DNA of 64,000 nt, taken from contig WOZJ01000066.1 in assembly GCA_011620345.1 (NCBI GenBank), positions 19,228 to 83,227 of the forward strand, in the 5' to 3' direction. This DNA is from Nitrospirota bacterium. Lineage in GTDB: Bacteria; UBA2233. The notes beneath the pieces were generated by a model. The model did not search any database, had not been told where the DNA came from, and saw only the letters and a list, made by a program, of their open reading frames with translations. Of this stretch, positions 16,444-56,081 are shown piece after piece (the stretch's first letter is position 1; the number at the start of each line of letters is the position of its first letter). A program made the position numbers and the translations under genes.

Positions 16444-17131
16444 CGAGGAAACCCCCCGCTTCCTTTCGGTTGAGGGCTTGAGCAAACGCTTCAAAACGCC
16501 CGCAGGCGAGGTGAAGGTTCTAGAAGACGTCAGCTTTGAGGTGCAAAGGGGCGAGGCGCTGGCGATCGTCGGACCTTCGGGCGCGGGGAAGACCACGCTC
16601 TTGCATATCCTGGGGACTATTGAAAACCCAAGCGTGGGTCGTGTAAGATTTGGAGGTCTTGACCCTTTTTGCTTGAGCAGGAAGGCGCTCGCGCGGTTCC
16701 GGAATACGCGGATAGGGTTCGTGTTCCAAATGCACCACCTACTGCCGGAGTTTAGCGCCTTGGAGAACGTCATGATGCCGGCAGTCATTCAAGGAATGCC
16801 GGATAAAAGGGCAAGGCAGCGTGCGATGGAGCTTCTTTCGGAAGTAGGAATTGGACACAGGGCACGCCACAGGCCGGGCGAGCTCTCTGGCGGGGAGGCA
16901 CAAAGGGTGGCGATTGCCAGGGCTATCGTCAACGCGCCCGACCTCGTTTTGGCCGATGAGCCGACGGGCTCGTTGGACGAGGAAACGGGCGGGCGGGTTT
17001 TTGATCTTCTTTTGGGGCTCAACCGTGACAAGAACATGACGCTCGTCGTCGTGACGCACAACCATGAGTTTTGGGGCTTGATGGATCGTTGCCTTAAGCT
17101 AAGCCAAGGGAGAATCCGTGAAGAGGTCTAG
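16436..17131 (+). CDS. lolD: Lipoprotein-releasing system ATP-binding protein
   Basis: Walker A 'GPSGAGKTT', signature 'LSGGEAQRVAIARAI', Walker B 'LVLADEPTGSLD'; follows lolC. Confidence 0.92.
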   Translation: MNSEETPRFLSVEGLSKRFKTPAGEVKVLEDVSFEVQRGEALAIVGPSGAGKTTLLHILGTIENPSVGRVRFGGLDPFCLSRKALARFRNTRIGFVFQMHHLLPEFSALENVMMPAVIQGMPDKRARQRAMELLSEVGIGHRARHRPGELSGGEAQRVAIARAIVNAPDLVLADEPTGSLDEETGGRVFDLLLGLNRDKNMTLVVVTHNHEFWGLMDRCLKLSQGRIREEV

Positions 17132-19478
17132 GCCTTGGACGCTCGGGCTTGTTTTGGGATGGCTGGGTTGTTTGGTTGTCCTGCCTTTGGGGGGCGCGCT
17201 GGATACGCTTGCCGAGCAGACGCCGCTCGAGGGCGAGCCGATTCAGGAGGTTCGGGTCGAAGGCAACCAGCGGATTGACGCCGCGGCCATCCTAGAGAAC
17301 CTGGAGACGAAGACCAAAGGGCAGCTTCGGTCGTCTTCGATCGATCAGGACATCCGTTCGATCTATGCCATGGGGTACTTTGACGACGTTCGGGTCTACA
17401 CAGAAGCCGCACCCCAGGGCGTACGGGTGACGTTCCAGGTCAAAGAACGACCCATGATCCTATCCATCCGCTTTGAGGGCAACAAGAAGCTCAAAGAGGA
17501 CAAACTTAAAGAAGCCCTTCTCGTGAAAGAGCACACGATCCTTGACCCCGCCAAGGTTCAAGAGGGCATTACGGCGATTCGAAAGCGTTACCGGGAAGAG
17601 GGTTACTTCTTCGCGACGGTGAGCTCCAGGATTGAACCCAAAGAGGGCAACACGGCCGATGTCGTGTACAAAATCAACGAGAACAAGGCCGTGAAGGTCG
17701 TCGAGATCACGTTCCAAGGCAACGAGCACTTTAAGGAAAAAGAGCTGAAATCTGCGCTGGCCATCAAGGAGAAAGGGTTTTTTTCTTGGATTACGAGCTC
17801 GGGCAAATTTACGGAGGAGATGCTTGAGACCGAACCCATGCGCTTGAGCAGCTTTTACATGGACCACGGGTTCATTAACGTTCAAGTGAGCCGTCCCGAA
17901 GTCAAGCTTACCGAAGAAGGCGTAACACTGCATTTTAGCGTTCGGGAGGGGGATCGCTACAATGTGGGCAGTCTCGACATTGAAGGAGACCTGATCGAGC
18001 CCAAAGAAAAACTGATGTCCCTTCTGACGCTCAAAACGGGGAACGTGTTCTCGGCCTCCGAACTCAGAGCCAACATTGCCAAGCTTTCGGATGCCTACGC
18101 AGACAAGGGCTACGCTTACGTCAACGTTGACCCGGGTACCCAAGTGGACGACCAAAACAAGCTTGTTCATGTTCGCTTTATCATCGACAAGGGCAACCTC
18201 GTCCAAATCCGGCGGATCGACATCACGGGCAACTCCAAGACCCTAGACAAGGTCATAAGGAGGGAGCTCAAGGTTGAGGAAGGCGATACCTATTCGCGTT
18301 CTTTGATCGAACGGTCCCGTGAACGGGTCAACTTCTTAGGCTTTTTTGATGACGTGAAGGTCGCGACGAAGCGTGTCGACGAGACCCACTCCGACGTCGA
18401 TGTCCAGGTAAAGGAGGGGCAGACGGGGACGATTTCCGCGGGCGCAGGCTATTCGAGCTACGATAAAATGGTGTTCCAAGGGCAGGTCACCGAGCGTAAC
18501 TTCAGGGGACGGGGAGAAATCCTTTCGTTCGCTACGGCGATCGGCTCTAGACGCGAAGAGTTTGATATTGGTTTTACCGAACCCTATTTTCTCGACACGA
18601 ACTTGTCGCTCGGCGTCAACCTATTCATCAACGAGCGTGAGTTTGATGAGTATGGAAGAAGGGACATGGGGGGGTCTGTCCGGGTTGGGATGCCGGTCGG
18701 TGAGTACACGCGGATCGGGCTCGGCTATACCTACCAAGACGTCAAGATTTCGGACATCCCGTACTTTTTCGGGCGCTACCTGGTCGATTCTGGTATTCGG
18801 GACTGGGGGGACCAGTACCGGACGAAAGTCGACCAGCCGGACAAGTCCTCTACGAGCTCCGTAGCGTTTACGATCTCCCGAAACACTACCGACCATCCGA
18901 TCGATCCCACAAGGGGCAACGTCCAAGGGGTGGCGATCGAGTACGCGGGAGATTTTATGGGCGGAACGAACGATTTTGTCCGCTACATGGGGCAGAGCGC
19001 TTGGTTTTGGCCTACGTTCATCAAAAACGTGGTCTTCTCGCTCAGGGGTCAGATGGGCTTCATCCAGTCGAACTCGGACGATCCTTTACCCTACTATGAA
19101 CGATTCTGGGCGGGCGGGATTGACACGCTTAGGGGATTCGACTATAGGGCCGTTTCTCCTAGGGACAGGGCCGGCCACAACGTGCATATCGGGGGCGATA
19201 AGCTGCTCGTGTTCAACGCAGAGGTCATTTTCCCCTTGATCAAGCGGATGGGGATCAAGGGGGTAGTGTTTGGAGACGCGGGGAACGTGTATTCCTACGG
19301 CAACAGCTTCGACCCCGGCAACATGCGCAAGGATGTGGGGTTCGGAATTCGGTGGCGATCGCCTCTTGGGCCGTTGCGCGTGGAGATCGGCTTCCCGATC
19401 GACAAGCGTTACTCGAACGACGACTCGTTCAAGGTCAACTTCTCGATGGGCGCCCCGTACAGAGGGTTCGGGTTTTAA
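17118..19478 (+). CDS. bamA: Outer membrane protein assembly factor BamA
   Basis: Repeated POTRA segments ('IQEVRVEGNQRIDAAAILENL', 'ILSIRFEGNKKLKE', 'VVEITFQGNEHFKEKEL'), C-terminal barrel 'LRVEIGFPIDKRYSNDD'. Confidence 0.95.
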   Translation: MKRSRPWTLGLVLGWLGCLVVLPLGGALDTLAEQTPLEGEPIQEVRVEGNQRIDAAAILENLETKTKGQLRSSSIDQDIRSIYAMGYFDDVRVYTEAAPQGVRVTFQVKERPMILSIRFEGNKKLKEDKLKEALLVKEHTILDPAKVQEGITAIRKRYREEGYFFATVSSRIEPKEGNTADVVYKINENKAVKVVEITFQGNEHFKEKELKSALAIKEKGFFSWITSSGKFTEEMLETEPMRLSSFYMDHGFINVQVSRPEVKLTEEGVTLHFSVREGDRYNVGSLDIEGDLIEPKEKLMSLLTLKTGNVFSASELRANIAKLSDAYADKGYAYVNVDPGTQVDDQNKLVHVRFIIDKGNLVQIRRIDITGNSKTLDKVIRRELKVEEGDTYSRSLIERSRERVNFLGFFDDVKVATKRVDETHSDVDVQVKEGQTGTISAGAGYSSYDKMVFQGQVTERNFRGRGEILSFATAIGSRREEFDIGFTEPYFLDTNLSLGVNLFINEREFDEYGRRDMGGSVRVGMPVGEYTRIGLGYTYQDVKISDIPYFFGRYLVDSGIRDWGDQYRTKVDQPDKSSTSSVAFTISRNTTDHPIDPTRGNVQGVAIEYAGDFMGGTNDFVRYMGQSAWFWPTFIKNVVFSLRGQMGFIQSNSDDPLPYYERFWAGGIDTLRGFDYRAVSPRDRAGHNVHIGGDKLLVFNAEVIFPLIKRMGIKGVVFGDAGNVYSYGNSFDPGNMRKDVGFGIRWRSPLGPLRVEIGFPIDKRYSNDDSFKVNFSMGAPYRGFGF

Positions 19479-19505
19479 CATTTCAAACGCGATGAAGGTG
19501 GTTCC

Positions 19506-20051
19506 ATGAAAGCCAGAAGGCTCGAAGGTCGAGTGTTTGTTTTTTTGATGATGCTGGTGTTCCTGTCGGCAGGACTTTTTCCTAAGGGCGCATCGGCCAA
19601 GGAGGTCCGTATCGGCGTGGTGGACCTGCAAAAAGCGCTCAACGAATCTACAAGAGGGGCGCAGGCGAGGGCCACATTCTCAAAGAGGGCTACCGAGCTC
19701 CAAAAACAGATTGAGCAGCGGCAAAAGGAGCTCGAGACGATGAAAAACGAGCTGGCCAGCAAAGCGAGCGTCCTTTCTGAAAAGGCGCGTGCGGAGAAAG
19801 AGCGGGTTTACCAAGAAAAACTCAAGGATTTTCAGCGGTTCTACAGGGATGCTCAGGACGAACTCCGGAGTAAGGATCAGGAGCTTACGAGCGGGCTTTT
19901 AAGGGAGATTCAGTCGATCATCGCCTCGATCGGGCAAAAGGGCGGGTACAGCGTGATCCTTGAGAGGGGGGAAAGTTCTGTTCTTTTTGCGGACAAAGAG
20001 GTCGACATCACGCAGGCAGTCATCGACGCCTTTAACAAGTCTCCCAAATAA
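19506..20051 (+). CDS. OmpH/Skp family periplasmic chaperone
   Basis: Signal peptide, 'IGVVDLQKALNESTRGAQARATF', coiled-coil, position between bamA and lpxD. Confidence 0.9.
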   Translation: MKARRLEGRVFVFLMMLVFLSAGLFPKGASAKEVRIGVVDLQKALNESTRGAQARATFSKRATELQKQIEQRQKELETMKNELASKASVLSEKARAEKERVYQEKLKDFQRFYRDAQDELRSKDQELTSGLLREIQSIIASIGQKGGYSVILERGESSVLFADKEVDITQAVIDAFNKSPK

Positions 20052-20054
20052 AGC

Positions 20055-21140
20055 ATGCCCGAACAAGCCCGGCCTATCCTAGCCCATGACCTGGCAAGGA
20101 GCCTAGGCGGAGTATACCAGGGGCCGGAAGGACTTGTGCTGAGTGGGGTTGCAACGCTCGAGGAGGCTTCGAAAGAAGACCTATCGTTTCTGACGAACGC
20201 AAAGTACATAGGCCTTGCGAAGGAATCCAAGACGGGCTGCCTGTTGATTGCGCCCGAGCATAGGGATACCTTTGAAGGTCCGAAGATCGTCGTTCAAACA
20301 CCCTATCTTGCGCTTGCGAGGGCTGTCAGGCTGTTTTATCCAGGCCAGGAGTCCGAAGCCGGCGTGTCTTCGCTGGCCTTTGTTCATCCTAAGGCTTGGG
20401 TGGCGCCGAGCGCCTCTGTCGGGCCGTTTTGTGTCATCGAAGAAGGGGCCAGGGTTCTCGAGAGGGCCAGGCTCGTGGCTCAGGTCTTTGTGGGCCGGAA
20501 CGTTATCGTTGGGAAGGCATGCCTAATCTATCCGCACGTGAGCCTTTTGGATGGGACGATTCTGGGTGACAGGGTGATCGTCCAGGCGGGCTGCGTCGTC
20601 GGCTCGGACGGGTTTGGGTTTGCCTTTGACCCGGATTCCAAGGCCTACGAGAAGATTCCGCAGGTAGGACACGTCGAGGTCGGGCCTGATGCCGAGCTTG
20701 GTGCATGCACCACGATTGACAGGGCGTTTATGGGTAGGACGTTGATCGGAGAGGGGACGAAAGTGGACAACCTCGTGCAGGTTGGCCACAACGTTCAAAT
20801 AGGGAAACACTGCATATTGGTATCCCAGGTAGGCATCTCTGGCTCGACCAAGATCGGCGATCACGTAACGCTTGCGGGTCAGGTGGGCGTGGTGGGCCAT
20901 ATCCGTATCGAGGAAGGTGTCGTCGTGGGCGCTGGTTCCGGGGTGCATGGCGACCTCAAGGCCCACAGGACCTACTGGGGGTTCCCGGCCGTAGAATACA
21001 AACGGGCGCTCGTGCGCCACGGTGCCCTCGAGCGGCTGCCGGAGCTGCGGAAACGGGTCTTTTCGCTCAAGCAGCGCCTGGAGGCGCTCGAAAGGAGGCT
21101 TGAAGAGGGTGGGTGCGGACATTCAGAAGATCCTGGCTAG
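20055..21140 (+). CDS. lpxD: UDP-3-O-(3-hydroxyacyl)glucosamine N-acyltransferase
   Basis: Hexapeptide repeats, 'VIVQAGCVVGSDGFGFAFD', 'DNLVQVGHNVQIGKHCILVSQVGISGSTKIGDHVTLAGQVGVVGH'. Confidence 0.96.
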   Translation: MPEQARPILAHDLARSLGGVYQGPEGLVLSGVATLEEASKEDLSFLTNAKYIGLAKESKTGCLLIAPEHRDTFEGPKIVVQTPYLALARAVRLFYPGQESEAGVSSLAFVHPKAWVAPSASVGPFCVIEEGARVLERARLVAQVFVGRNVIVGKACLIYPHVSLLDGTILGDRVIVQAGCVVGSDGFGFAFDPDSKAYEKIPQVGHVEVGPDAELGACTTIDRAFMGRTLIGEGTKVDNLVQVGHNVQIGKHCILVSQVGISGSTKIGDHVTLAGQVGVVGHIRIEEGVVVGAGSGVHGDLKAHRTYWGFPAVEYKRALVRHGALERLPELRKRVFSLKQRLEALERRLEEGGCGHSEDPG

Positions 21141-21543
21141 GCTTCCCCATCGTTACCCCTTCCTGTTGGTTGACAAGGTTCTAAAGATAGACAAAGATGG
21201 CGTCGTGGCATTGAAATGCGTAACGATCAACGAGCCCTACTTTGTCGGCCATTTTGAAGATTATCCCGTCATGCCTGGGGTACTGATCCTAGAGGCCGCA
21301 GCGCAGGCGGGCGCGTACTTTCTGCTTGAGACGATCGAAACGAAGCCCGACGAGATCGTGTATTTGGCCGGCGTGGACGGAGTAAGGTTCAGAAGGCCCG
21401 TGAGGCCTGGCGACCGGCTGATTTTGACTCTTAAGGTGCTCGCTCACAAAAGGAAGGTATTTAAGATGTATGCTCAAGTGAGCTGCGAAAATGAACGCGT
21501 CATGGAGGGGAAGCTGACGGCGGTTTTAGGGAAGAAGGGCTGA
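21100..21543 (+). CDS. fabZ: 3-hydroxyacyl-ACP dehydratase FabZ
   Basis: 'LPHRYPFLLVDKVLKID', 'NEPYFVGHFEDYPVMPGVLILEAAAQAG'; TTG 21100 or GTG 21109 start overlapping the lpxD 3' end. Confidence 0.95.
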   Translation: MKRVGADIQKILARLPHRYPFLLVDKVLKIDKDGVVALKCVTINEPYFVGHFEDYPVMPGVLILEAAAQAGAYFLLETIETKPDEIVYLAGVDGVRFRRPVRPGDRLILTLKVLAHKRKVFKMYAQVSCENERVMEGKLTAVLGKKG

Positions 21544-21546
21544 GGT

Positions 21547-22332
21547 ATGGGGATTCATCCGAGTGCCGTTGTTGCCGAGGGGGCCAGGGTTGCAGAAGAT
21601 GCCAGCGTTGGACCCTACTGTTGCGTAGGGCCCAACGTCGTGCTTGAGAGAGGCGTGCGGCTCGTAAGCCACGTCGTAATCGAGGGCGCGGCCCGAATCG
21701 GCGAAGGCACCGTCGTCTACCCGTTCGCTACGATCGGCCTGCCACCGCAGGATCTAAAATACCAAGGGGAAGAAACGGCCGTCGAGATCGGGAAGAACAA
21801 CACGATTCGAGAGTGCGTGACAATCCACCGGGGAACGGGTGCTGGAGGGGTGACAAAGTTAGGAGACGGTGGCTTGATCATGGTAGGGGCGCATATCGCG
21901 CACGACTGCCGGGTCGGCAACGGGACGATTCTCGCGAACGTCGTCACGCTTGCAGGCCACGTCGATATTGGAGACCACGTCATCTTGGGAGGCCAGGTGG
22001 GCGTCCATCAGTTTGTCCGCGTGGGCGCGTACGCCATGATCGGGGCAGGCTCGATGGTTTCGCAGGACATCGTCCCGTTTTCCTTGGCCGTAGGAGATCG
22101 CTGCAAGCTCAAGGGGTTGAACCTCGTGGGCCTGAAACGAAGAGGGTTTTCTCCCAAAGAGATTCGCGCGCTCGAGCGGGTCTTTTATGCCTTGTTTCTT
22201 TCTAAGCGGCCTCTTAAAGAAGCCCTTCGTGAGCTAGAAGAGAGCCCGGATGTTGTCGAAACCCCCAGTGTTCAGCGGCTCGTTCGGTTTGTCCAGGACT
22301 CCAAACGAGGGATAGCCCGTGTACGGGATTGA
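21547..22332 (+). CDS. lpxA: UDP-N-acetylglucosamine acyltransferase family LpxA
   Basis: Hexapeptide repeats, 'MVGAHIAHDCRVGNGTILANVVTLAGHVDIGDHVILGGQVGVHQFVRVGAYAMIGAGSMV', 'GLNLVGLKRRGFS'. Confidence 0.96.
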   Translation: MGIHPSAVVAEGARVAEDASVGPYCCVGPNVVLERGVRLVSHVVIEGAARIGEGTVVYPFATIGLPPQDLKYQGEETAVEIGKNNTIRECVTIHRGTGAGGVTKLGDGGLIMVGAHIAHDCRVGNGTILANVVTLAGHVDIGDHVILGGQVGVHQFVRVGAYAMIGAGSMVSQDIVPFSLAVGDRCKLKGLNLVGLKRRGFSPKEIRALERVFYALFLSKRPLKEALRELEESPDVVETPSVQRLVRFVQDSKRGIARVRD

Positions 22333-51143: not shown

Positions 51144-51267
51144 GCGATACCCTTGTTAGCCGATTTGTTTTGCCGATTGCGTTTATCGTATCATACCGCC
51201 GGCAATGGGGCATCTCAGGATAGGCGTGCTAGAATATCACAATTTAAGAAAGCTACGAGGAGGGCGC

Positions 51268-52314
51268 ATGAAGAACGCCGTAAAACGTCGAGAAAGACGG
51301 TTTTTTTTCACTCTTGTCTTGTTGCTAGCAGGATACGGTGCGGGGTTTTGCGGCGATTTTACGGGGAACCCTCGGATGGAAGGTTTTGTCCGCATGATGA
51401 CGGATACACAAGGGGCCGACCCAGAAGAGCTCCGCGGTATTCTTGAGCAGGCAAGGAAGAAGCAGAGTATCCTTCGCGCGATGGAGGCGCCGGCCGAGGC
51501 CAAGCCTTGGTGGGCATACAAGCCCATCCTGGTCAACGCACGAAACGTTCAAGAAGGCAGGGCATTCCTTAAAAGGCACGTTAGAGCGCTCAAGCGTGCA
51601 GAGTCTATTTACGGCGTACCGGGTGCGCTCATAACGGCCATATTAGGAGTAGAGACCAGGTATGGCAAGAACATGGGCACCTTTCGCGTGCTGGATTCGC
51701 TGGCTACGCTTGCGTTTGATTACCCAAGGAGGGCGGATTTCTTCGCAAACGAGCTTAAGGAATTCTTCTTGATGACTAAAGACGACGGGCTTGCCCCGCT
51801 TTCTTTAAAGGGATCGTACGCGGGGGCTATGGGCTACCCCCAGTTCATGCCGAGCAGCTTTCGGCGCTATGCCGTCGATTTCGACAAGGACGGGAAGAAA
51901 GACATCTGGAACAGCGTAGAGGATGCCATCGGCAGCGTCGGCAATTACCTGGCAAGCTTTGGGTACAACCCGACGCAGCCGGTCTGCCTAAGGGCGGTTC
52001 CTGGTCCAAGCGAGAGCGCATTAAAAGACAAAGTGCTTGCAAATGGCGTGGAGCCTGCCTTTTCCTTTGTCATGCTGAAGGAGGCAGGGTTTGAGTTCCA
52101 GCACGACGGGCTCGATGCGAACACAACGGGCGGGGTCTTCAGCCTGGAAGGGTTTGAAGGGCCCGAGTACTGGGTGGCCCTTCCCAACTTCTGGGTAATA
52201 ACCCAATATAACAAAAGTCGGCTTTATGCGATGGCCGTGTTCGAGCTTGCCCGCCATATCCAGGGGACAAAAGGCTGGACAATCCCCATGCTATCTCAGC
52301 AAGACCCCCGATAA
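51268..52314 (+). CDS. mltB: Lytic murein transglycosylase, MltB-like
   Basis: 'YGVPGALITAILGVETRYGKNMGTFRVLDSLATLAFDYPRR', 'LKGSYAGAMGYPQFMPSSFRRYAVDFDKDGKKDIWNSVEDAIGSVGNYL'; ATG 51268 preceded by GAGGAGG. Confidence 0.93.
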   Translation: MKNAVKRRERRFFFTLVLLLAGYGAGFCGDFTGNPRMEGFVRMMTDTQGADPEELRGILEQARKKQSILRAMEAPAEAKPWWAYKPILVNARNVQEGRAFLKRHVRALKRAESIYGVPGALITAILGVETRYGKNMGTFRVLDSLATLAFDYPRRADFFANELKEFFLMTKDDGLAPLSLKGSYAGAMGYPQFMPSSFRRYAVDFDKDGKKDIWNSVEDAIGSVGNYLASFGYNPTQPVCLRAVPGPSESALKDKVLANGVEPAFSFVMLKEAGFEFQHDGLDANTTGGVFSLEGFEGPEYWVALPNFWVITQYNKSRLYAMAVFELARHIQGTKGWTIPMLSQQDPR

Positions 52315-52345: not shown

Positions 52346-53002
52346 CTAAGGTCCAGAGGGCAGCATGGCGGCCTTGTCCGTATGGCAGGTCGCGCAAAGC
52401 TTCCCATTGCTTGCGCTTTCCCATAAAAGCGGCGTCTCGGTCGAACGAAGCTTGAAGGCGATCGTCTTGTCGTCCTTTGGAAGGCCGAGCTTTTTGGCCG
52501 TGATTTCGCGCCTTTCTTCCGTCAGCCCTTGCATAAGCGCCATGTTTGGGGCTGCAGGTATGTTCGTCTCTACGGTCCGTGCGGGTCCGGTGATGCCCCA
52601 TGCCGGCGAGTGGGGGTCGTGGCATGTGCCACAGGTGATCTTGCCGGAGGCATCCAAAGGAAACGCGTTTGCCCTTTTCTTTCTTGCCTGCTCGATTCCT
52701 GCCTTGGCCTCACGTGTCGGAAGGGTCAGGTGGCGCTTGGCACCGATATGCGGGCTTTCCCCGTGGCAGCCGAAACACGCCCTGAAAGGCGCGGGATGGA
52801 ATCCGGAGAACTTCTCTTTTGGCATTTCCTCGGGTGTCGGCTCGAGGCTGTGGCAGACGTCACACTGCTCGCCCATAGGCCCACCGTGCGGGAAGGGGAG
52901 GTCTTTCCCGTCGTTCTGTGCAAGGCCTGCTTGAATATGAATAAGGCCAATCGTTAGAGCTCCTGCAATCAGGACGCTGAGGCGGTAAGAGCGCATTCCC
53001 AT
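52346..53002 (-). CDS. Secreted tetraheme c-type cytochrome
   Basis: Signal peptide plus CDVCH, CFGCH, CGTCH, CATCH. Confidence 0.9.
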   Translation of the reverse strand: MGMRSYRLSVLIAGALTIGLIHIQAGLAQNDGKDLPFPHGGPMGEQCDVCHSLEPTPEEMPKEKFSGFHPAPFRACFGCHGESPHIGAKRHLTLPTREAKAGIEQARKKRANAFPLDASGKITCGTCHDPHSPAWGITGPARTVETNIPAAPNMALMQGLTEERREITAKKLGLPKDDKTIAFKLRSTETPLLWESASNGKLCATCHTDKAAMLPSGP

Positions 53003-53005
53003 CGG

Positions 53006-53332
53006 CTATTCCTCCTGCGTAGAAGATCCGGTTCCGTTGTCGCCGTGGCAGAGTATGCAGCTTGCCTCACCGCGGCGCTCGACGACACCACGGACCCAAC
53101 CCATATCCCAGCCCGTGAGAAACGCGCTATCATCGTCGCAATGGATGGCCCTGATAGGATGACAGGAAACGCACTGCCGCCTTCTCCAGCCCGAAGGGTG
53201 TTCTTCTTGCGTAAGCCGTACTCCTTGAGGAGAGCCGGCGAGTGGGCCGTAGTCCTGGCATTGGTAGCCGTGGGCGAAAGAGGCGAGCGCTACAAAGACG
53301 CCCCCTAAAAGGACGAACGTTTTTGTTCGCAT
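53006..53332 (-). CDS. Small secreted diheme c-type cytochrome
   Basis: 108 aa, signal peptide, CVSCH and CILCH. Confidence 0.85.
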   Translation of the reverse strand: MRTKTFVLLGGVFVALASFAHGYQCQDYGPLAGSPQGVRLTQEEHPSGWRRRQCVSCHPIRAIHCDDDSAFLTGWDMGWVRGVVERRGEASCILCHGDNGTGSSTQEE

Positions 53333-53347
53333 CGTCTTTTGCTCCTT

Positions 53348-53956
53348 TTAGCGCCGAAGCAGTTGCCTGTGACAGCCAAGGCAGAAGTTTTGCCTGTGGC
53401 AGCTCGAGCATTTCATCGGGTTTGCCCTGGCTTCGATCGCGTGGTAGAAGAGATAATTTCCCTCGTGGACCTTGTTTTGCATCGTATCCCTGCGCATGTG
53501 GCAATCTACGCAGAACGACTGGGCATGGCAGAGCTGGCATTCCTCGCCGGAGGTCTGTGCAAGAATACGATGGTCTTTCTTGAAGCTCAACGTGTGCGTT
53601 TTCGGCTTGATCGCGGCCATGTTGTCTTTATGGCAGCTTGTGCACTTCAGGGGCCGCTTTGCCTTTCGTTCTTCGTTGTTATGGCATGCATGACAGGTCT
53701 CTTGGCCCGGTTTCAGGTAACGCGCTTCGATCTCGTCGTCAAGCTTTTCGTGCTGGCTTTCGAGCGTGGCGTTGAACGGGTGGCAGGAGATGCAGTTAAA
53801 CCCATCTTTTTCGAGCAAGACGCGGTGCTTGCCGTGATCGAAGACGGAGGCCGCGGATTTAGGGGGGGCAGGGGGCTCTTCTTTGGCCATTCCGGAAAGG
53901 GCAACGCCAGCCAAGCCTGCCGCAAAGATTAAACTAAAAACGGGTATTCTTTTCAT
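53348..53956 (-). CDS. Secreted heptaheme c-type cytochrome
   Basis: Signal peptide plus CISCH, CHACH, CTSCH, CQLCH, CVDCH, CSSCH, CLGCH. Confidence 0.92.
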   Translation of the reverse strand: MKRIPVFSLIFAAGLAGVALSGMAKEEPPAPPKSAASVFDHGKHRVLLEKDGFNCISCHPFNATLESQHEKLDDEIEARYLKPGQETCHACHNNEERKAKRPLKCTSCHKDNMAAIKPKTHTLSFKKDHRILAQTSGEECQLCHAQSFCVDCHMRRDTMQNKVHEGNYLFYHAIEARANPMKCSSCHRQNFCLGCHRQLLRR

Positions 53957-53973
53957 GGCAAGGTCCTTTTGCC

Positions 53974-55329
53974 CTAGAATTTGGTGTCGAAGTTGTAGAA
54001 GGCCATCAGGCCGCCCCGGATGTCGTCATGGTAAAAGTCGTTCGAGTTGGCCTCGAAGAAGCCCTGGAGCTTGCAGTCTCGAAACAAAAGGTAGCTGACC
54101 ATCGTGCGGAAGTTGAAGGCCTGATCGCTCTGGTTGGTGGTTTTGTCGTAATGGACCATGTTAAACCAGTTTTCCCACTCGAGCCTTTGGGTGAGCTTTA
54201 GGCTATACTCTGCTCTGGGGCCTACGGCTTCCCCGCCGTAGCTCTTCAAGTAGAACATGCCTAAAGAAAGGGCATGTTCGTTCCTTTCTCCGAACGTCTT
54301 GCGAAGTCCAGGCTCGAACGAGTAGCCTTTTGTCCGTTCGCCCGGGAACGTCTCGTAGGTCTGGTAGGCGAAGTCTGTATAAACGCTCAAGCCAGGGTTT
54401 AAGGCGTAATCAAACCCAACCTTGGATTGCCAAAGCGAGCTTGCCGAAAACAGCCCGAAGATGAGGTCGTCCATCGTGTTCAGCGTGAACATGTCTGTCG
54501 TGTAGGCCTCTCGCTCCCACAGGTTGGTGTCGTAGTAGGTGCCCTCGAGCTTCATGCTGAACTTCTGCGTCAGGAACATCTGCGTTCCAAAAACGACGTC
54601 CTCGAAGCCCCCTTGAGAGTTGTTGTAGACCATCTCTTGGTAAAGGAGGCTATCGATCGGGAAGCTTAGCGGCTTTTGCCAGGTGAGGTGCAAGAGCTCG
54701 TCGTGCTCGTCTGGATAATCTAGGTCGCGCTCCATGTAGCCTACCTCGCCCGAAATTTGGAAAGGCAGGCTGAACTTTGCCGAAATGCCCCAGATTTTTT
54801 CGTCAATGTTCTCGTCTTGGTTGTACCATTCCGAAAATGTCTCGAGGTCTCTGGGTTTGCCGTAGAAGAAGTTGAGCGCAAGGCTCTTCGTAATCTCGAG
54901 GTCGCCCTGAATGGCATCGGCCAGGAAGACGTTCCCCGCCTTGTGGATAAACTGCCTTCCAAGGACCAGGCTCAACCTGTCCGCGATCCTTGGGATCTCT
55001 ACGTAGCCCAAGAAGACGTCTACCTGGCCGCTTTCGTCCGGATAGCCGTTGTAGGCAAAATCGTCGCGGTAGCGAAAGTAGGCTACTGCCGAAGCGCCCT
55101 GAGGCAGGTCCTCGAGCGTGAAGCGGCTGTATAGGCTAAAGGGCATCTCGTTGCCGCCGAAGCGGTGCCCCCCGTAGACGAGCGAGCCCTTATGGTAGCG
55201 GTTCTTCCTTCCCTCGAAAAGCGCCTCGAAGTTCCCGGAGAGCGTTTCGGCAATCGCCCGGGTTTCTTGGACGAAGAAGACCCCTACAAGGCAGGCCGTG
55301 GCTAGCGCTTTGAGTGTCGTTCCCCTCAT
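53974..55329 (-). CDS. Outer-membrane beta-barrel-like protein, candidate porin of a porin-cytochrome conduit
   Basis: Signal peptide; alternating amphipathic strands ('LSLVLGRQFIHKAGNVF', 'GLSVYTDFAYQTYET', 'LMAFYNFDTKF' with terminal Phe); embedded in the multiheme cytochrome operon. Confidence 0.75.
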   Translation of the reverse strand: MRGTTLKALATACLVGVFFVQETRAIAETLSGNFEALFEGRKNRYHKGSLVYGGHRFGGNEMPFSLYSRFTLEDLPQGASAVAYFRYRDDFAYNGYPDESGQVDVFLGYVEIPRIADRLSLVLGRQFIHKAGNVFLADAIQGDLEITKSLALNFFYGKPRDLETFSEWYNQDENIDEKIWGISAKFSLPFQISGEVGYMERDLDYPDEHDELLHLTWQKPLSFPIDSLLYQEMVYNNSQGGFEDVVFGTQMFLTQKFSMKLEGTYYDTNLWEREAYTTDMFTLNTMDDLIFGLFSASSLWQSKVGFDYALNPGLSVYTDFAYQTYETFPGERTKGYSFEPGLRKTFGERNEHALSLGMFYLKSYGGEAVGPRAEYSLKLTQRLEWENWFNMVHYDKTTNQSDQAFNFRTMVSYLLFRDCKLQGFFEANSNDFYHDDIRGGLMAFYNFDTKF

Positions 55330-55356
55330 TGCCGACCCCTGCTGTTTTTTTGGTGG

Positions 55357-56010
55357 TTACATGCCAGGAGGCGCAAAGCTCTTCGTGTGCTCGTGACAAA
55401 GCACGCAGTTCGAGGTGAAGTGGGCCTCGCCCGTCCCATCCCGGCGGTAATGGTTCGTTTGCGTATGGCATACCTCGCAAAGCCCTTGTCCCGGCTCTTT
55501 GCCGTTCTGGCCTCCGGATGCGCTTGGGAGCTCCACGAAGCTGTCGTCCGCCTGTCCGTCCTCGTTAAGGAAGCGAATCTCTACGGGTGTGCCGTCGAGC
55601 GTCGTCAGCAGATCCCGGACCATCGAGAGGTTGGGCGTTCCGTGTGGGTTGTGGCACGCGGCGCAGTTGGCCGTTCGCTCTTCTGGCGTCCCTAACGTGG
55701 CCCAGAGTGCGGGCGGGTGGCCATGGGGCTGGCCCGTGGGCCAGGTTTCGTTGTGGCAGGTCTCGCAGTTTGCCTTGGTCATGTGGCCCGTGCCAAACCC
55801 GGTCCTTGCCCGCGTATGGCACATGAAGCAGGCCGTGCCGTGGCCCTGGAAGGTTCTTGCACGTTCTACGTACTCCGAGTGGCAAAACTCGCAGTCATCC
55901 GGGGCCTGGAAGTACTCCGGGGGAGCGGTGTATTTCTTCGCTCCAAGGAGCGCGACGCTCGCGATCAAGACCATCCCGGCCCCTAGACTCAACAGCCTTC
56001 TTCTTTGCAT
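55357..56010 (-). CDS. Secreted or membrane-anchored hexaheme c-type cytochrome
   Basis: CEFCH, CFMCH, CETCH, CAACH, CEVCH, CVLCH; start taken at ATG 56010 (MQRRRLLSLGAGMVL), preceded by GGGAGGAG. Confidence 0.92.
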   Translation of the reverse strand: MQRRRLLSLGAGMVLIASVALLGAKKYTAPPEYFQAPDDCEFCHSEYVERARTFQGHGTACFMCHTRARTGFGTGHMTKANCETCHNETWPTGQPHGHPPALWATLGTPEERTANCAACHNPHGTPNLSMVRDLLTTLDGTPVEIRFLNEDGQADDSFVELPSASGGQNGKEPGQGLCEVCHTQTNHYRRDGTGEAHFTSNCVLCHEHTKSFAPPGM

Positions 56011-56051
56011 GGGCTCCTCCCTCGATGTTAGCTTTCCCTCTAACCCCATGC

Positions 56052-56081
56052 ACTATACTCGATCATTTTTGTGATTTGCAA
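56052..56081 (-). promoter_or_regulatory. Candidate promoter of cytochrome operon: TTGCAA-18-TATAGT with internal ATCA-N6-TGAT inverted repeat
   Basis: Minus strand -35 at 56076-56081, -10 at 56052-56057, about 35-40 nt upstream of ATG 56010. Confidence 0.55.

Follow-up and report, generated by a model that had tools for sequence, protein, structure and literature searches.

A five-gene operon on the minus strand of the window (that is, the whole stretch of 64 kb that was analysed) most likely encodes a porin-cytochrome (Pcc) conduit, which would carry electrons across the outer membrane. Judging from the encoded proteins and their homologs, we put the probability of this reading at about 0.8. 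The sequence-only reading had suggested such a conduit, and it gains support from the occurrence of an operon of barrel, 7-heme and 2-heme genes (the trio) in other phyla, from natural fusions of barrels with multiheme cytochromes, and from cytochromes with a bis-His pattern.

The first gene encodes a 6-heme cytochrome c (P0001, 55357..56010) and is followed by the gene of a barrel-like protein of 451 aa without any CXXCH motif (P0002, 53974..55329), the predicted outer-membrane beta-barrel and conduit porin. Then come the genes of a 7-heme cytochrome c (P0003, 53348..53956), the proposed trans-membrane wire, of a 2-heme cytochrome c (P0004, 53006..53332), the conserved third core subunit, and of a 4-heme cytochrome c (P0005, 52346..53002), a proposed periplasmic partner. 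The gaps along the operon are 27, 17, 15 and 3 bp, and the cytochromes contain 19 CXXCH motifs in total (6, 7, 2 and 4); gene order, gaps and motif number are all as the sequence-only reading had given them. After shuffling of the residues, the mean number of motifs per cytochrome is 0.01-0.07, compared with the 2-7 observed. The window holds no multiheme ORFs besides these four, and the four match generic Pfam models alone (c3/c7/Paired_CXXCH). On inspection, the N-termini look export-like, as had also been claimed, that of P0001 being either a signal-anchor or a signal peptide. The same kind of inspection found no canonical lipobox in P0001, P0003, P0004 or P0005, which counts against the conduit reading.

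The annotated ORF of P0001 extends to 56049. Its start is probably the internal ATG at 56010 (giving a protein of ~217 aa), because this codon is preceded by a strong Shine-Dalgarno sequence, GGGAGGAG, and because a TATAGT that resembles a promoter element is located near 56052-56057. The latter belongs to a promoter-like site (TTGCAA-18-TATAGT, minus strand, 56052..56081) 5' of the operon, and the number of such sites is at chance level (1 found, 1.5 expected). The operon boundary proposed earlier, 56081, is upstream of the likely start codon. At the other end, the operon meets a lytic transglycosylase gene (51205-52314) tail-to-tail.

We infer that P0002 is a barrel from its hydrophobic alternation, its aromatic content, its C-terminal Phe (...FYNFDTKF) and its homologs. 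By alternation, it ranks second among the window proteins, after BamA (17118-19478). The same measure separates the barrel family from controls with an AUC of 0.93, and P0002 taken alone is equalled by 35 of 261 controls. Aromatic residues make up 17% of the protein, compared with 9%; there is no transmembrane helix past the signal peptide, and a crude alternation score gives ~21 amphipathic segments, which is a rough figure. The similarity to the Pfam family OMP_b-brl is weak (E=3.4e-4) and under the cut-off of the model. For the 34-member family of P0002 we found no Pfam or NCBIfam model, and current annotation therefore misses it. The source genome encodes one barrel of this family.

P0003 has seven CXXCH motifs and seven invariant histidines outside them (H41, 44, 89, 121, 129, 164 and 172), which are kept across 23 homologs. 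Likewise, P0004 has two CXXCH motifs and two invariant non-motif histidines (H45 and H64). This pattern predicts bis-His ligation for every heme of both proteins, and since each heme has its invariant extra histidine, P0003 and P0004 seem to be wires, not enzymes. Compared with chains of known structure, the P0003 profile matches 3ov0, which we take to be the 12-heme GSU1996 (E=1e-17), and weakly 6r2q_A, presumably MtrA (E=2e-6). P0004 used as a single phmmer query finds proteins in the same position in ~20 clusters (E 1e-9 to 1e-18). The 2-heme HMM was built with some of the 2-heme proteins from the loci found with the barrel profile (below), and these are also found with P0004 alone. Most relatives of P0004 are lipoproteins; P0004 itself is not, by motif. 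In one family (f109) the 2-heme domain forms the N-terminus of an 8-heme lipoprotein.

From the phylum of the window two genomes were compared, the source genome and Nitrospirae bacterium UBA2233 (L009), and in the latter the five genes are all present, with gene order and flanking neighbours unchanged. Distant homologs of P0002 were found in three genomes of other groups, each adjoining the gene of a 7-heme protein, and a search with a 7-heme profile (383 genomes) gave more such pairs. With the barrel profile alone, we found the family in 21 of 47 genomes of one phylum (that of G130) and in 8 of the 186 from the phylum of G129. Among the loci found in this way in those 21 + 8 genomes, 20 were examined; the 7-heme gene lies directly 3' of the barrel gene in all 20, and the 2-heme gene comes next in 19 of them, the other locus being cut off by a contig edge. 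The barrel and 7-heme genes are adjacent in all 34 loci examined, and a search of 381 genomes around G109 found the 7-heme type in 19. Co-occurrence in relatives, on which the earlier proposal had been made to depend, thus covers the whole operon in the sister genome and three of its five genes at 19 loci in other genomes. Furthermore, the distances of the barrel, 7-heme and 2-heme proteins are correlated (Mantel r 0.95, 0.90 and 0.90), which is what a co-inherited unit would give. In the barrel tree, the window is placed on the side of the clusters that carry the 2-heme gene (trio-type), apart from f11 and f109, with a support of 93, which is less than the mark of 95, and on a tree with long branches. 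No relatives of the 7-heme alignment were found among viral contigs, and tblastn of P0003 against plasmids gave no match.

These data bear on the idea of a periplasmic respiratory module that happens to stand beside a functionally unrelated general porin. AlphaFold, run on two-row alignments, confirmed neither the barrel nor the 7-heme fold (pLDDT 26 for P0002 and 32 for P0003), which counts against the conduit and would leave room for such an arrangement. However, the linkage over several phyla, the correlated divergence and the natural fusions argue against it, as does an operon in which Pfam and NCBIfam models show no catalytic subunit, and we regard it as highly improbable. Nor do the cytochromes match a soluble nitrite, sulfite or Hdr pathway, which had been named as the alternative to a conduit.

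Many sister clusters have the gene of an 11-28-heme lipoprotein 5' of the barrel gene, where the window has that of the 6-heme P0001. The only clear homolog of P0001 is in the sister genome UBA2233, and its matches to the giant multihemes encoded upstream in sister clusters are weak and generic; as no homology was detected, we liken P0001 to these lipoproteins by its slot alone. The earlier remark that a large extracellular multiheme is missing holds for the operon, which has no large lipoprotein cytochrome, but not for its relatives, since most sister clusters have one.

A 6-heme cytochrome was also seen in a different setting. Locus L094 (G374:C1:2235000-2245000) contains a barrel-type ORF of 479 aa, a 6-heme cytochrome of 154 aa and a protein of 953 aa whose N-terminus is twin-arginine-like. 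There are five such 6-heme matches in this genome, G374, which suggests a repeated extracellular-enzyme module.

Two single ORFs join a multiheme domain N-terminally to a conduit barrel, one with 12 CXXCH motifs (L126:320-2497, genome G422) and one with four (L046:7382-9040, genome G130). Homologs of the fused domain are encoded directly 5' of the barrels in sister clusters; they are proteins with 11-28 hemes and mostly lipoproteins. Together with the strict linkage of the barrel, 7-heme and 2-heme genes, the fusions suggest that barrel and multihemes are physically coupled. The N-termini of barrels usually face the periplasm, and for this reason the large multiheme partners may be located in the periplasm and not outside the cell. 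A barrel-multiheme protein of a different sort, GM18_3465, has been described (PMC4245776).

Physical coupling is not what one would expect if the barrel were a pore through which a small acceptor enters, to be reduced by the multihemes in the periplasm with no electrons crossing the membrane. A precedent comes from ExtI, for which such a role has been proposed, which is encoded in a multiheme operon and whose loss impairs the reduction of selenite and tellurite (PMC5877670), and a pore would also agree with an operon that encodes no surface lipoprotein. On the other hand, the fusions and the strict linkage of the trio suggest a coupling of the barrel to its cytochromes, the extra histidines of P0003 and P0004 leave no obvious open catalytic heme, and P0002 has no NCBIfam Ext match at E<=1. 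We therefore consider a substrate pore quite unlikely. The ExtHIJKL selenite/tellurite operon was also rejected as an assignment for the locus as a whole, as there is no rhodanese among the five genes and no NCBIfam Ext model matches the window proteins.

How does the proposed conduit relate to known ones? The window 7-heme protein is 34-38% identical to its counterparts at two loci (L047/L048) of genome G011, and the barrel is 20-21% identical. We take this genome to be Desulfurobacterium thermolithotrophum, with which its gene set agrees. This species forms Pcc Group III with Thermovibrio ammonificans and Denitrovibrio acetiphilus (PMC4245776). Sequence comparison makes the homology of both window proteins to Group III clear, but the barrel tree sets trio-type clusters apart from f11 and f109 (support 93). 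In Group III as in the window, a small porin-like protein adjoins a heptaheme-type cytochrome and is accompanied by further multihemes. The window differs in having separate 2-heme and 4-heme genes and in lacking 24-28-heme and NHL-repeat genes. P0005 resembles the 7-heme protein encoded downstream of the barrel/7-heme pair at L047/L048 (E about 1e-9). We do not regard P0004 and P0005 as a split version of the L048 protein, which matches P0005 modestly at its C-terminus and P0004 very weakly at its N-terminus.

The Pcc clusters of Shi et al. 2014 combine porins of 18-22 predicted strands with periplasmic cytochromes of 5-14 hemes; the porin-like gene always adjoins a periplasmic c-cytochrome gene, and an outer-membrane cytochrome, usually a lipoprotein, is present in most but not all of them (PMC4245776). 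In the window, the genes of P0002 and P0003 are adjacent (17 bp apart), and the seven hemes of P0003 lie inside the range of 5-14. Given these clusters, including Group III, the kind of conduit is known and its small size is normal. Size had been taken as a mark of distinctness, which does not hold, as small barrels with 5-14-heme partners are typical (PMC4245776). The claim of a distinct conduit stands in two respects: the third subunit, small and conserved, with its two hemes, and an operon that has no large lipoprotein cytochrome. The conduit is not of a wholly new kind.

The similarity to other systems is more general. Compared by description, the Geobacter systems OmbB-OmaB-OmcB, ExtABCD and OetABI also combine a barrel, a periplasmic multiheme and other proteins, but their partners have 8 or 12 hemes and they include large surface lipoproteins, unlike the window. 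The published components have little sequence in common (PMC6148476). Clusters with a similar arrangement in genome G306 (L078-L080) are picked up by the barrel profile with E values of 1e-11 to 1e-21. With MtrCAB, MtoAB and PioAB the window would share the layout of a heme wire through a barrel, and it shares the weak profile similarity of the 7-heme protein to MtrA; it has no decaheme, however, and its barrel is far smaller. Membership in MtrAB/PioAB was rejected, as there is no match to MtrB_PioB (PF11854) at E<=1; the P0002 profile also has no detectable similarity to the MtrB chain of 6r2q, and this counts against a conduit. An MtrA/DmsE-type decaheme was rejected as well: P0003 has seven hemes and does not match TIGR03508, and P0001 and P0005 are far under the cut-off of that model. 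Finally, PCC3 and PCC4 of iron oxidisers have a porin and periplasmic multihemes, and PCC4 is also without a surface cytochrome, but PCC4 includes an inner-membrane protein and cytochromes with 4, 5 and 10 hemes, and PCC3 has very large barrels and cytochromes (PMC5566968). Heme counts and models speak against both, and we rejected these assignments.

The bacterium is uncultured and looks like an anaerobe. Its outer membrane contains LPS, as shown by a run of bamA, skp, lpxD and lpxA-like acyltransferase genes in the window (17118-22332). Elsewhere in its genome (G000:C50:172000-181500), genes for a 12-heme NapC-type, an 11-heme/cytochrome b561 and a 13-heme/cytochrome b protein lie close together. 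By domains only, the 12-heme and 11-heme/b561 proteins are ImcH- and CbcL-like, and these multihemes are candidate quinol oxidases that could feed the conduit. A second cluster (G000:C42:1-7755) with cytochrome b-like, Rieske-like, 3-heme and 7-heme genes possibly encodes a multiheme bc-type complex. The genome also encodes two molybdopterin enzymes. This gene setting is compatible with a chain from quinol to the outside, though short of proof.

For the conduit itself, we envisage that P0002 forms the outer-membrane barrel, that P0003, placed inside the lumen or below it, conducts electrons through the barrel, and that P0004 extends or caps this wire. P0001 and P0005 would relay electrons to the conduit from the quinol-oxidising multihemes of the inner membrane; alternatively, P0001 might be an onward carrier at the cell surface. 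We give this detailed arrangement roughly even chances. Net flow would most likely be outward, to an extracellular acceptor. An inward conduit, supplied with electrons from outside the cell (for instance by Fe(II), by Mn(II) or by a partner cell), has parallels in the Mto/Pio-type porin-cytochrome pairs that oxidise Fe(II), where clusters typically comprise two genes and lack a surface cytochrome (PMC4245776, PMC5566968). Sequence by itself gives no reading of direction, either way. Yet a haem-copper oxidase (COX1) was not found in the 97%-complete genome, the CbcL-like and NapC-type modules look like an outward pathway, and at the time of PMC4245776 no pcc cluster had been reported from a known Fe(II) oxidiser, which makes the inward direction unlikely.

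Three features appear to be undescribed so far, namely the fusions with the barrel, the occurrence over several phyla and the 2-heme protein as a conserved third subunit; for the 2-heme component and these fusions we found no description in the literature searched, with most subscription papers outside its scope. We would suggest, tentatively, that the trio is a distinct class of conduit over several phyla, in which the 2-heme protein completes a nine-heme wire through a small barrel. The large multiheme would be an exchangeable partner, in some cases joined N-terminally to the barrel (possibly in the periplasm) and in others absent, as here. If this is true, it would add a compact conduit core that is found in little-studied phyla, and the fusions and the invariant nine-heme pattern would offer a small target for the structure of a Pcc conduit. 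It would also raise the structural question of how a chain of hemes passes through a barrel that is so much smaller than MtrB.
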